Positions 20,727-48,868 of a stretch of DNA of 64,000 nt are shown here, one piece after another. The stretch covers positions 124,001 through 188,000 of the forward strand of contig NZ_JANYMP010000002.1 of the NCBI RefSeq assembly GCF_025061645.1, written 5' to 3'. Source of the DNA: Umezawaea endophytica. Its GTDB lineage: Bacteria > Actinomycetota > Actinomycetes > Mycobacteriales > Pseudonocardiaceae. Under the pieces are notes generated by a model, which saw nothing but the letters and a program-made list of their open reading frames with translations, did no database searches and had not been told where the DNA came from. Numbering within the stretch: position 1 is the first letter of the stretch; each line of letters opens with the position of its first letter. Both the position numbers and the translations under genes were made by a program.

Positions 20727-21134
20727 GTGTCGAACATCGAGGTCCGCCAGGCGGGTCAGCACGTCTTCGTCGCGTCGAACGGCAGGGGCGCCGAGGTCCG
20801 GATCGGGCGCAAGGACCAGGACGGCTCGTTCAGCCCGGTAGAACTCCTGCTCGCCGCCGCGGCCGGGTGCGTCGCCGTCACGGCGGAAACCCTGCTCACG
20901 CGCCGGGTCGGGGAGTTCACCGCGCACGCGGAGCACGTGAGCGTCGAGGGCGCCCACGAGGTGGCGACGGTGCCGGTCTCGCTCGACTACGACCTGTCCG
21001 GTTTGGACGACGCCCAGCGCGAAGCGCTGGAGGTGGTCGTGCGCCGGGCCGTGGAGCAGTTGTGCACCGTCACCCGGACCTTGAAGAGGTCCGCCACGAC
21101 GCCGCTGACGTTGCCGGGCGCGGCGACCGATTAG
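20727..21134 (+). CDS. OsmC/Ohr family protein
   Basis: Thiol peroxidase-like protein of 135 residues. The two family cysteines are present, in LLAAAAGCVAVTAE and VEQLCTVTRTL, consistent with reduction of organic hydroperoxides. A TAGCTT -10-like box at 20715-20720 ends six bases before GTG 20727, with no Shine-Dalgarno between, so the mRNA is probably leaderless. Convergent with the abiE operon, eight bases apart. Confidence 0.92.
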   Translation: MSNIEVRQAGQHVFVASNGRGAEVRIGRKDQDGSFSPVELLLAAAAGCVAVTAETLLTRRVGEFTAHAEHVSVEGAHEVATVPVSLDYDLSGLDDAQREALEVVVRRAVEQLCTVTRTLKRSATTPLTLPGAATD

Positions 21135-21141
21135 GTCCGGA

Positions 21142-21966
21142 TCACGTGGGGCGCGACCGCTTGATCTCCGCCGCGGCGTCGCGGACACCCTGGCCCACGG
21201 CCCGCACCAGGAGTTCGGGGCGATGGCCGCCCATGTCCCTCGCCAGTAGCCCCATCAGCTCCTGGTCGTCCAGGACGCGGAGCAGCGTGGCGACGCCTTC
21301 GTCGTCGAGCAGACCCGGTACGCGCGATCCCAGGAGCCACGCCCCTGCCTGCGTCGGCTCGTAGTCGAACCGCTCGAGCGTGGCGAAGTGCTCGTCGTAG
21401 AGCTGGTCGAGGTGATTCTCGGACGAGTACCACTCGATCATCGTCCTCAGGTCGAGCGCGTCGCGGACGTCGTCGTGGTGGCGGTCCTGCCAGGCGAAGA
21501 CCTTCAACAGCACGAGCGCCGGTATCGACGGGACCTTGACGGAGAGGTCGCCCGGCAGGATCACCGTGAGCGCCGAGTCGACCGCCTCGCGAAGGCCGAG
21601 GGCGTTCATGACGTGGTCGTCCGGCCACCTGATCGTCCGGTCCGCCTGCTCGACGCCGCCGTAGGGCAGCACGTCGACCTCGGTCCCCTCGACGATGAAC
21701 CTGTGCTCGTGGCGGCCGTGCCGCTCCAGGTTCCGCACCAGGTCGGCGAAGGCGTCCCAGGACTCGACCTCGGTCGCGATGTCGACGTCCCTGGTCCGGC
21801 GTTCCGGGCTCGCGCCCCGCAGACCGGTCGAGATCAGGGACCGCGCGGTCGCACCCACGACCAGGTAGGTGACGCCTGCTTCCCTTGCCGTGTCATCGAT
21901 CCGGGCCAGCACCCTAGCGGCCCGGAGGACCTCAAAGTCGGTCGAGGCCCGCAAGTCGATCGTCAT
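21142..21966 (-). CDS. AbiEii-like nucleotidyltransferase (type IV toxin)
   Basis: A 274-residue protein with an N-terminal nucleotidyltransferase fold: VVGATARSLI takes the place of the glycine-rich loop, RDVDIATE (about 60-67) holds the paired Asp, and a third Asp is in EVDVLPYGG. It then has the basic KVPSIPALVLLKVFAWQDR segment typical of AbiEii/MenA-like enzymes. Known AbiEii toxins inhibit growth, and related MenT toxins add nucleotides to tRNA. Its start lies 35 bases inside the abiEi gene, so the pair is co-translated. Classical AbiE systems abort phage infection. Confidence 0.82.
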   Translation of the reverse strand: MTIDLRASTDFEVLRAARVLARIDDTAREAGVTYLVVGATARSLISTGLRGASPERRTRDVDIATEVESWDAFADLVRNLERHGRHEHRFIVEGTEVDVLPYGGVEQADRTIRWPDDHVMNALGLREAVDSALTVILPGDLSVKVPSIPALVLLKVFAWQDRHHDDVRDALDLRTMIEWYSSENHLDQLYDEHFATLERFDYEPTQAGAWLLGSRVPGLLDDEGVATLLRVLDDQELMGLLARDMGGHRPELLVRAVGQGVRDAAAEIKRSRPT

Positions 21967-22945
21967 TGGTCCTGATCCTGTCCGCGTGCTCGCGCTGACG
22001 GGGGTCGCCGGACGCGAGCAGGTCAGCGTAGATCAACGTGGACGGCACGATCCACGACTGGCCCTCCATCGTCCAGAACCGCCGTCGCACGTGGACGTTG
22101 CCGACCTGTTCCGCGCGCACCATCCGGTGCCTGCCGATGAGCGAGCGCGGCTGCTCGTCGACGTAGAGGGTGAGGGTGGACGAGACGAGGTGCCGGTCCA
22201 GCAGGCTCGCACCGGCTTCGCCGCCCACCTGGGCGTTCGACCGCGTCAACTCGTCCTCCGAGTCCCGCCACCACGAGAGGTCGGGGACCTGGAAGTCGCC
22301 GAGGGGCAACGCGGGCGAGAGCCTGGTCGAGTAGGCCTCCGACCACCGGTCGAGCAGTTCTCCGGCCCTGCCCAGCCTGCGTTCTCCGGCCACGTCGTGC
22401 AGGTAGCCCGCCTTGGTCAGGTCGTCGACGACGGCCTGGGCCGTGCCGAGCGAGACCCCACTGGCCCTCGCGAGCCCGCGCAGCGGTGCTGCGGCCGTGG
22501 ACGGCCAGGTGAGCAGGACGAACCCGACCTGCAACCCCGCGCGGCTGAACGCCTTGATCCCGCGCGCCGAGGACCTGGTCGTGTTCCCGCTGGCCCTGCG
22601 GCGACCCCGGACGTCGATGAGCACGTTGTCCCAAGCGATGTGCGCGTTGCCCGCCTCGTCGACGTAGTCGACGCCCCGCTCGCGCAACAGGCGTGCGGCC
22701 TCCTCGGTGATCGAACCGGCCACGACCAGGGTGGGCAGCGAGGGGTGCGGGTGGAGCGCTGTCGCGAGTTCGGCGGGCACGGACCGCTGGACCACGACGG
22801 CGTACCGCCGAGCCGCGCCCGACGCGCGGCTGATCCGGACCACCAGGTCGGTGGCGTGCTCCTCCACGGCGACCTGGAGGCCGACCTCACGCAGCCGGTC
22901 GCCCAGTTCGTTCAGAATTCCGCCATGTTCATTTTTTCTGAACAT
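21932..22945 (-). CDS. AbiEi-like antitoxin/transcriptional repressor
   Basis: A 337-residue protein of the AbiEi type IV antitoxin family. An N-terminal domain (about 10-135) includes LPTLVVAGSITEEAARLLRERGVDYVDEAGN. A winged-helix segment follows near 145-200 (LRGLARASGVSLGTAQAVVDDLTKAGYL), and the C-terminal part closes with YADLLASGDPRQREHADRI. AbiEi represses its own operon and neutralises AbiEii. ATG 22945 lies inside a 23-bp perfect inverted repeat, and a -10-like box ends six bases upstream, so translation is probably leaderless. The operon has only 46 bases before the DUF2231 gene. Confidence 0.8.
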   Translation of the reverse strand: MFRKNEHGGILNELGDRLREVGLQVAVEEHATDLVVRISRASGAARRYAVVVQRSVPAELATALHPHPSLPTLVVAGSITEEAARLLRERGVDYVDEAGNAHIAWDNVLIDVRGRRRASGNTTRSSARGIKAFSRAGLQVGFVLLTWPSTAAAPLRGLARASGVSLGTAQAVVDDLTKAGYLHDVAGERRLGRAGELLDRWSEAYSTRLSPALPLGDFQVPDLSWWRDSEDELTRSNAQVGGEAGASLLDRHLVSSTLTLYVDEQPRSLIGRHRMVRAEQVGNVHVRRRFWTMEGQSWIVPSTLIYADLLASGDPRQREHADRIRTNDDRLAGLDRL

Positions 22946-22961
22946 GGCGGAATTCTGAACG
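22909..22961 (-). promoter_or_regulatory. 23-bp perfect inverted repeat across the abiE promoter and start codon
   Basis: Arms 22909-22931 and 22939-22961 are perfectly complementary over 23 bp with a 7-nt loop (TTTTTTC on the plus strand). The core of each arm is CAGAATTCCGCCATG or its complement, much richer in AT than the surroundings. On the minus strand TTGCGC (22980-22975), a 17-bp spacer and CAGAAT (22957-22952) form a promoter whose expected start is the A of the abiEi ATG at 22945. The -10 box, start site and first twelve codons therefore all lie within the repeat. Confidence 0.85.
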
Positions 22962-22991
22962 CGAAGTCCGGTCGGCGCAAGTTCCCGTGGT

Positions 22992-23510
22992 TCAGCTCGT
23001 TCCCACGCCGTCCCACACGGCCGTCGCGCCGCTGTGCCCGATCCGCACGGTCTGCACCGTGCTGGCGACGCCGGTGCACACGACGAGGACCGCGATGACG
23101 ATGGCGACGCGCCGCCACGTCTTCGGGATCTCCGGCGTCTCGGCCGCCGCCGTCCGCTCGCGGTCGGCCAACCGGCCCGCGACCACCAGCAGCACGACCG
23201 CGACGCCGAAGCCCAGCGCGAACGGCATCAGGTCGTTGCCCAGGTCGGCGTGCCGCTGGATCAGCGGGTTCTCCAGGTTCGCCATCCTGGCTTCCAGTTG
23301 TTCGCCCGCCTTCTGCGCCAGCGGGACCGAGCCGACGCCCACCAGCGTCAGGCCCAGCACCGGCCACGCGTACTTCTGCCGCCACCCCGGCCGGACCGCG
23401 ACCGCGATGGCGCCCGCCGCCGCCAGCGGCAGGAGGACCACCACCGCGTGCACCAGGAGCGGGTGGGCCGGGATCCCTGCGATCGTCCACAGGTCGTCTG
23501 CGAGTGCCAT
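22992..23510 (-). CDS. DUF2231 family membrane protein
   Basis: Integral membrane protein of 172 residues with four predicted helices (about 18-40, 50-68, 92-112 and 134-155) and the DUF2231 opening GIPAHPLLVHAVVVLLPLA. Function is unknown; family members are sometimes linked to haem or redox proteins. The gap to abiEi is 46 bases. Its own promoter lies in the 62 bases shared with the divergent rph gene. Confidence 0.88.
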   Translation of the reverse strand: MALADDLWTIAGIPAHPLLVHAVVVLLPLAAAGAIAVAVRPGWRQKYAWPVLGLTLVGVGSVPLAQKAGEQLEARMANLENPLIQRHADLGNDLMPFALGFGVAVVLLVVAGRLADRERTAAAETPEIPKTWRRVAIVIAVLVVCTGVASTVQTVRIGHSGATAVWDGVGTS

Positions 23511-48809: not shown

Positions 48810-48868
48810 ATAGTCGATCTTGGTTTGTCAAGGCGGGAAAGATGCCTTGACAAACCAAGATCGACTAT
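48810..48868. repeat. 25-bp perfect inverted repeat, intergenic
   Basis: Arms 48810-48834 and 48844-48868 are perfectly complementary over 25 bp, with loop GGGAAAGAT. The arms begin ATAGTCGATCTTGG and are AT-richer than the flanks. It lies between the XRE gene and the LCP gene (both minus strand), 145 bases after the LCP stop. No T tract follows, so a simple intrinsic terminator is not certain; a dispersed hairpin repeat is an alternative. Confidence 0.85.

Follow-up and report, generated by a model that had tools for sequence, protein, structure and literature searches.

How an abiE toxin-antitoxin operon is controlled when its antitoxin start codon lies inside a long perfect palindrome is the question raised by a locus of Umezawaea endophytica. 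It is located in the stretch of 64,000 nucleotides analysed here (the window; contig NZ_JANYMP010000002.1, positions 124,001 to 188,000, all positions below being those of the window). The palindrome could be read by a protein as an operator in the DNA, it could fold in the mRNA and sequester the start codon, or it could be without function. Our comparison with related loci suggests that it is very probably the operator of this AbiE-type operon, composed of four half-sites and serving transcriptional autorepression by the antitoxin.

The abiE operon and its palindrome

The locus comprises the following features:

21116..22991: block present here and absent at the same site in two genomes of the same genus, whose aligned flanks are separated by 57 and 102 nt
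21142..21966, minus strand: toxin gene, AbiEii-type nucleotidyltransferase, 274 aa
21932..22945, minus strand: antitoxin and presumed autorepressor gene, AbiEi_2 family, 337 aa, ATG at 22945
22909..22961, minus strand: predicted operator, its architecture kept in relatives, two perfect 23-bp arms and a 7-nt spacer (CGTTCAGAATTCCGCCATGTTCA / GAAAAAA / TGAACATGGCGGAATTCTGAACG on the minus strand)
22956..22960, minus strand: half-site 1, outer left, GTTCA
22939..22943, minus strand: half-site 2, inner left, GTTCA, overlapping antitoxin codons 1-3
22927..22931, plus strand: half-site 3, inner right, GTTCA on the plus strand
22910..22914, plus strand: half-site 4, outer right, GTTCA on the plus strand, overlapping codons 11-12
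22975..22980, minus strand: -35-like TTGCGC, 17 bp before the -10, inside the AACTTGCG block that is invariant in three loci
22952..22957, minus strand: -10-like CAGAAT, 6 nt before the ATG, a leaderless geometry

The assignment as an AbiE toxin-antitoxin operon, made in a first-pass annotation of the sequence, holds. The two open reading frames overlap by 35 nt, the antitoxin belongs to PF09952 (AbiEi_2; E 1.2e-29, 103.9 bits, cut-off 21, residues 190-325) and the adjacent gene encodes a nucleotidyltransferase matching PF08843 (AbiEii; 29.8 bits, cut-off 22.5). The antitoxin gene is the only PF09952 gene of the genome. PADLOC matches the toxin weakly (PDC-M21B, E 0.00038; AbiEii, E 0.0012) and does not match the antitoxin; neither protein matched an NCBIfam family, the phage collection contained no relative at the limit used, searches of solved structures returned no credible relative, and a profile search of the PDB at E<=1 returned no AbiEi or Rv2827c chain.

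In the two same-genus genomes devoid of the block at this site (G001 and G002) the flanking genes, which by eye we take to encode an OsmC-like protein and a membrane protein, are adjacent, the aligned parts being 102 and 57 nt apart compared to 1,886 and 1,876 nt in the window; G002 has an abiE pair about 0.15 Mb from that site. As the alignment of the window with a same-genus locus (L005) spans 21175-22996, i.e. from near the toxin 3' end to just past the -35, the genes seem to move together with their operator and promoter.

The inverted repeat is perfect as annotated, with 23 of 23 pairs between 22909-22931 and 22939-22961, the loop being seven nucleotides (TTTTTTC on the plus strand) and not the six thymines proposed. 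With 43.4% G+C in a window of 71.1%, the 53-mer is indeed the AT-rich island described, its G+C being matched or undercut by 28 of 63,948 window 53-mers. Among the best 15 perfect inverted repeats listed for the window (spacer 0-30), only the palindrome and 48810-48868 reach at least 18 bp. Due to the symmetry, both strands encode Glu-His-Gly-Gly-Ile-Leu-Asn, as had been noticed. On the minus strand the ATG at 22945 falls within the first arm, the -10-like box and codons 1-12 being likewise inside the palindrome. Each arm contains two xGTTCA half-sites forming a direct repeat 17 bp apart, and the arms are mirrored across the 7-bp spacer, giving four half-sites.

Within the genome of 11,023,148 bases the site is unique. 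A 67-mer matches at a single place, where the palindrome is hit on both strands. Allowing up to two mismatches, the inner repeat is likewise found at a single place, and the four-half-site pattern with up to three mismatches occurs once. The looser pattern TGTTCA-N7-TGAACA with one mismatch is present at two further places, compared to one for a reversed control pattern. The genome-wide search for copies that had been suggested as a check shows one copy in 11.0 Mb and not many unrelated ones, and a dispersed repeat is rejected on this ground.

Recurrence of the four-half-site architecture and covariation with the recognition helix

Relatives were collected by a plasmid tblastn search (22 records, all below 60% identity, all fetched), by three genome searches and by a scan of viral contigs, which added two loci. 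The genome searches gave matches in 9 of 200, 41 of 396 and 23 of 394 genomes, the own genome counted; the loci used from them represent 9 of 9, 30 of 44 and 25 of 25 matches. L005 is 74% identical to the window locus and one of two loci more than 70% alike; in L003 from Saccharothrix yanglingensis the best segment reaches 76%, the antitoxin frame being shifted midway and left uncorrected. Between -55 and +46, an alignment of the window with L005 and L003 has as its longer invariant stretches AACTTGCG, GTTCA, CATGTTCAG, ATGAACAT, ATT and TGAACGA. Conservation is lost in the middle of the arms, which pairs poorly, resulting in 14 of 23 pairs overall in L003 and 18 of 23 in L005.

The architecture that recurs in the start regions is xGTTCA-N11-xGTTCA, 7 bp and the mirror image, and it is found where antitoxin genes begin in Actinomycetota, Bacteroidota, Pseudomonadota and one cyanobacterium. 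Examples are TGTTCATTATTATTACGTGTTCATTACACATGAACATACGATAATAATGAACA in Hymenobacter (L057), TGTTCAGTTTTCTATTGTGTTCAGCTAAACTGAACGACACTGAAAACTGAACA in a same-class genome (L071) and CGTTCAATTTTTGCTAATGTTCAATAAAAATGAACAGTCAAAAATTTTGAACA in Synechococcus (L050). Two more perfect palindromes of 23/7/23 geometry, with a repeat step of 18 bp, are present in L053 (GTCTAC) and L065 (GTTCA).

We scored the palindrome alone in 56 loci (61 given, L009, L010 and L012 being without blastp hit and L025 and L038 having the start off the stretch). At spacer 7, 25 of 56 start regions reached at least 16 of 23 pairs, compared to none of the 55 control regions, one locus having no control region. Among spacers from 0 to 20 the mean is highest for 7, and odd spacers up to 15 exceed even ones. 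In the 36 of 56 loci with at least 15 pairs, the direct repeat within the arm shows 69% identity at offset 17 and 24-39% at the other offsets (11-16 and 18).

A score combining palindrome and direct repeat was applied to 82 loci (86 given, L010 and L012 without hit, L025 and L038 skipped), the repeat fetches L001, L002, L013, L014, L066 and L083 and the flank-gene loci L093-L098 having been left out beforehand. It reaches at least 24 in 37 of 82 start regions compared to none of 1080 control windows of equal length taken from these loci, at least 22 in 50 compared to 16 and at least 20 in 60 compared to 95; these counts are descriptive and not to be read as p-values, as the score was designed with the pattern already in view and the loci share common ancestry. 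The remaining 22 start regions score below 20, as do 985 of the 1080 control windows (91%), which may mean that the architecture is not universal or that shifted variants were missed.

That the palindrome is a functionless mutational accident or a mobile or scattered repeat is highly improbable. Template switching can perfect a quasi-palindrome, and this would give what is seen here, a perfect palindrome in the window and imperfect ones in both close relatives; the abiE block itself also looks mobile. However, the genome has one copy, and in 37 of 82 loci the antitoxin gene begins with the same architecture, for which reason a coincidental palindrome was rejected. Template switching may explain the perfection of this copy but not the presence of the site.

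The half-sites point to a protein reader. They vary between loci, and the copies inside one locus largely agree. GTTCA is the commonest type, GTCCA being found in L049, L051, L055 and L092, GGTCA in L072, GTTTC in L074-L077 and GTTGCC in L011 and L086. The start of the recognition helix reads V[S/A][L/I/V/T]G or nearly so with GTTC, VSHG or VANG with GTCCA and VSKG with GGTCA. At its third position His or Asn is present in 4 of 4 GTCCA loci and in 0 of 29 GTTC loci (Fisher 2.4e-5, uncorrected for relatedness), the latter having Leu, Ile, Val or Thr in 29 of 29 and L072 having Lys. These helix counts were made by eye in rows scoring at least 22, drawn from the 60 of 82 loci scoring at least 20; the GTTC loci comprise 27 with exact xGTTCA as well as L065 and L091 (consensus shifted or GTTCG), and one of the four GTCCA loci, L055, has a ragged operator, which leaves three clear cases.

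The AlphaFold model of the window antitoxin, built from 3 sequences, is poor overall (mean pLDDT 49.7) and confident only at about residues 131-210 (block means 74-89), so that only the winged helix was used. It comprises helices 135-146, 155-162 and 166-178 and strands 182-185 and 188-191, i.e. a winged helix at about 135-191 with Leu166 at the start of the modelled recognition helix 166-178. Profile matches to helix-turn-helix families at residues 155-190 are all below their cut-offs. From the covariation we infer that the antitoxin itself would read the half-sites. A much bolder generalisation, which we regard as possible though rather doubtful, is that AbiEi_2 antitoxins across phyla share a four-half-site operator for which one recognition-helix residue sets the base preference (Leu/Ile/Val/Thr for GTTCA, His/Asn for GTCCA, Lys for GGTCA), and that in some actinomycetes the operator overlaps a leaderless frame, a residual 5' hairpin adding a translational layer.

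Position of the start codon and the mRNA hairpin

TTGCGC and CAGAAT are read here as -35-like and -10-like elements, and the SD labels used below likewise mean SD-like sequences. The window, L005 and L003 all keep TTGCGC/T, a spacer of 16-17 bp, CAGAAT/CAAAAT/CAGCAT, exactly 6 nt and the ATG. A promoter scan gave no sigma-70 match. According to the criterion of Cortes et al. 2013 (PMC3898074), as given in the part of that paper available, leaderless genes have TANNNT centred 7-12 bp before the start site, which CAGAAT fits imperfectly, its first base being C. The leaderless mRNA that had been proposed is nevertheless supported by the -35/-10 spacing and by the N-terminal length of the antitoxin in relatives.

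Of the possible start codons (ATG/GTG/TTG) in the antitoxin frame, the one at 22945 comes first. In four same-class genomes (L067-L070) an in-frame ATG directly follows the operator, at operator position 54 and behind TAGAAT-N6. The proteins encoded there start MADEQVVRELLNEVVARL, MADELPEQGVLSEVAARL, MADQQLRRDLLDEVVARL and MADELLEREILDEVIARI, to which the window protein (MFRKNEHGGILNELGDRL) aligns gap-free. The N-terminal length is kept (MFRKNEHGGILNELGDRLREVGLQ in the window compared to MADEQVVRELLNEVVARLDEFGLQ in L067, likewise in L068-L070), residues 10-24 of the window antitoxin aligning without gaps and the start lying at equal distance. Because of this alignment 22945 is most likely the antitoxin start; if so, the protein would have an N-terminal peptide such as MFRK or FRKNEHGGILNE.

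It is unlikely that translation starts downstream, at the codon-26 GTG or the codon-11 CTG, with the operator as an untranslated leader; this estimate concerns the start alone, and the operator reading is compatible with either start. Codon 26 of the window aligns with a start codon, being GTG here and ATG in L003 and L005, and the annotated start of L046 and L057 is the ATG of the last half-site, at which point the window has CTG. Codons 14-33, compared between L003 and L005, show no third-position bias (7:6:3, compared to 19:15:35 in codons 34-110), which taken by itself would permit a later start; the codon-position counts were mixed. The gap-free alignment at equal distance, the status of 22945 as first in-frame start and the leaderless spacing, which fits 22945, speak against a downstream start.

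With 22945 as the start, the operator lies 38 bp deeper in the gene than in the four same-class relatives, the start being at operator position 16 instead of 54. The operator thus appears shifted into the gene in the Saccharothrix-type lineage relative to these relatives, no order of age being implied, and therefore the leaderless start codon would lie inside it and operator bases would double as codons 1-12. Window and relatives differ in codons 2-9, whereas ILNE at codons 10-13, compared to LLNE and ILDE, suits both operator and protein. A peptide motif MFxKNE...ILN seen in several phyla was rejected as protein conservation; it is the operator read in frame, since it precedes the annotated start in L046. 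Other families place the start differently: L074, L075 and L077 have an in-frame start at operator position 24, 7 nt after TATCAT, TAACAT or TACTAT, which is leaderless-looking and would be inside the operator, L050 has its annotated start at operator position 16 as in the window, and L048 and L071 have theirs 9-11 nt past the operator, behind an SD-like GGAG.

These placements bear on the proposal that the palindrome folds as a 23-bp hairpin in the mRNA and sequesters the start codon. Translational control of this kind, alone or together with repression, is improbable. If transcription began upstream of the palindrome, the RNA would form a very stable fold (-47.4 kcal/mol for 91 nt, z -7.9). 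A 23-bp hairpin and a leaderless mRNA are, however, incompatible, because the 16 arm bases before 22945 would then be untranscribed. What a leaderless transcript can still pair, from nucleotide 1, is AUGUUCA/UGAACAU (7 bp, -5.5 kcal/mol, 21 nt), an inner repeat that is kept in L003 and L005. The closest relatives have imperfect arms with the 14 and 18 pairs given above. The start is found at operator positions 16, 24, 46 or 54 or 9-11 nt beyond the operator, so that sequestration is not the conserved function. The direct repeat within the arm, which an RNA hairpin does not need, and the covariation with the helix call for a protein reader. Of the dual control first envisaged, the transcriptional part is supported and the translational part, by a 23-bp hairpin, is not borne out; the 7-bp stem of the leaderless transcript may have a minor effect.

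Predicted autorepression and comparison with known systems

Autorepression at the palindrome, as had been proposed, is backed by comparison, namely by the conserved architecture, the covariation of half-site and helix and the single genome site; that the antitoxin represses its own promoter is suggested by conservation and covariation. This supports a model according to which the winged helix of the antitoxin reads the four half-sites, and bound antitoxin would cover the -10, the transcription start and the first 12 codons, preventing RNA polymerase from starting. Falling antitoxin levels would relieve the repression and both proteins would be refilled, the 7-bp mRNA hairpin being at most a by-product. 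Binding, repression, stoichiometry, release and toxicity are all predicted steps of this model. Co-operative AbiEi binding was reportedly described in a study of 2018.

The locus is otherwise of an ordinary toxin-antitoxin operon type, its operator being of unusual clarity. New here would be the four-half-site operator of a family, its covariation with the helix and an operator doubling as codons 1-12. What began as a one-off palindrome thereby yields an operator model with predictive use for repressors of a widespread toxin-antitoxin group: the gene start leads to the operator, and the half-site may be predictable from the recognition helix. The window locus would be a clean case in which the site of a repressor is coding sequence of that repressor in a leaderless gene: if the model is true, one stretch of DNA binds the repressor, forms the core of the promoter, contains the start codon and encodes the N-terminus, and DNA binding would supply part of the constraint on the antitoxin N-terminus.

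The prototype is the AbiEi of S. agalactiae, which binds two 23-bp inverted boxes with a 3-bp spacer over -35, -10 and +1 and represses its own operon (Dy et al. 2014, PMC3985639). The prototype system is further characterised by a growth-arresting toxin, by its neutralisation through the antitoxin in the absence of a complex, and by phage resistance. Common to both are 23-bp inverted boxes over the promoter, the promoter of the window being predicted from spacing. In contrast to the perfect arms and 7-bp spacer described here, the S. agalactiae arms have 4 mismatches and only the outer 11 bp are perfect; by eye, the sequence as printed there has no direct repeat within the arm, compared to four half-sites here, and the figure legend names an RBS, whereas here the start codon would lie inside the operator. 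The paper cites its figure S8 as inverted repeats at other abiE loci. The likeness to the Streptococcus AbiEi drawn in the first-pass annotation thus extends to the autorepression reading but not to the protein layout, as the modelled winged helix at about 135-191 is central, behind an extra N-terminal region, and that of the prototype is N-terminal. Autorepression is also not general for proteins called AbiEi, because an abiEi insertion mutant of Mesorhizobium huakuii, according to the part of the report available (PMC8436566), has unchanged toxin mRNA.

The AbiEi-like M. tuberculosis antitoxin Rv2827c binds two pairs of inverted repeats (13 bp within the pair) and represses, with negative co-operativity (Beck et al. 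2020, PMC7319586). The rv2827c-rv2826c promoter shares with the window 23-bp inverted repeats overlapping the promoter and bound there by the antitoxin; that paper places all four of its boxes before the start codon (-1 to -131), whereas the operator here would include the start. Leaderless transcripts of M. tuberculosis are over-represented among toxin-antitoxin modules (Cortes et al. 2013, PMC3898074), these genes having, as in the window, a -10 few bases before the start codon; the available part of that paper describes no operator overlap. Among the open-licence PMC matches listed, no title or abstract reports a four-half-site AbiEi operator or one containing the start codon.

Closest in architecture are the AbiEi_2-like antitoxins of plasmids, in which the operator is common, the score being at least 22 in 19 of 22 and at least 24 in 14 of 22. 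Half-sites differ in several of them and the placement of the start varies (L046, L057, L048, L050). An AbiEii-type neighbour is annotated in 14 of the 22 plasmid records, 4 records being unannotated there.

The toxin-antitoxin block and its surroundings

At window positions 21116-22991 the toxin-antitoxin block appears to have been inserted between two genes that lie next to each other in two other members of the genus. The window contains another perfect inverted repeat at 48810-48868, with arms of 25 bp and a loop of 9 nt, which is apparently intergenic.

The probable operator read in frame and the annotated starts

Translated in frame, the operator, i.e. the predicted four-half-site palindrome at the antitoxin start, resembles a conserved N-terminal peptide, and this peptide-like appearance may mislead start calling. 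The annotated antitoxin starts of the related loci L045, L047 and L050 are not alike: they fall either at the inner half-site next to the spacer, with TTG or ATG as the start codon, or at a later ATG.

Putative operators and gene integrity in related loci

Inspection by eye shows signs of two putative operators in tandem upstream of the antitoxin gene in loci L065 and L091, resembling, again by eye, the arrangement at M. tuberculosis rv2827c-rv2826c. In Hymenobacter volaticus (L053, 1528-2327) two overlapping CDS are annotated for the antitoxin, close to a perfect 23/7/23 palindrome (two 23-bp arms around a 7-nt spacer) with the half-site GTCTAC. The antitoxin gene of Saccharothrix yanglingensis (L003, 3001-4046) is split over two frames by a frameshift midway, reflecting either a sequencing error or decay.
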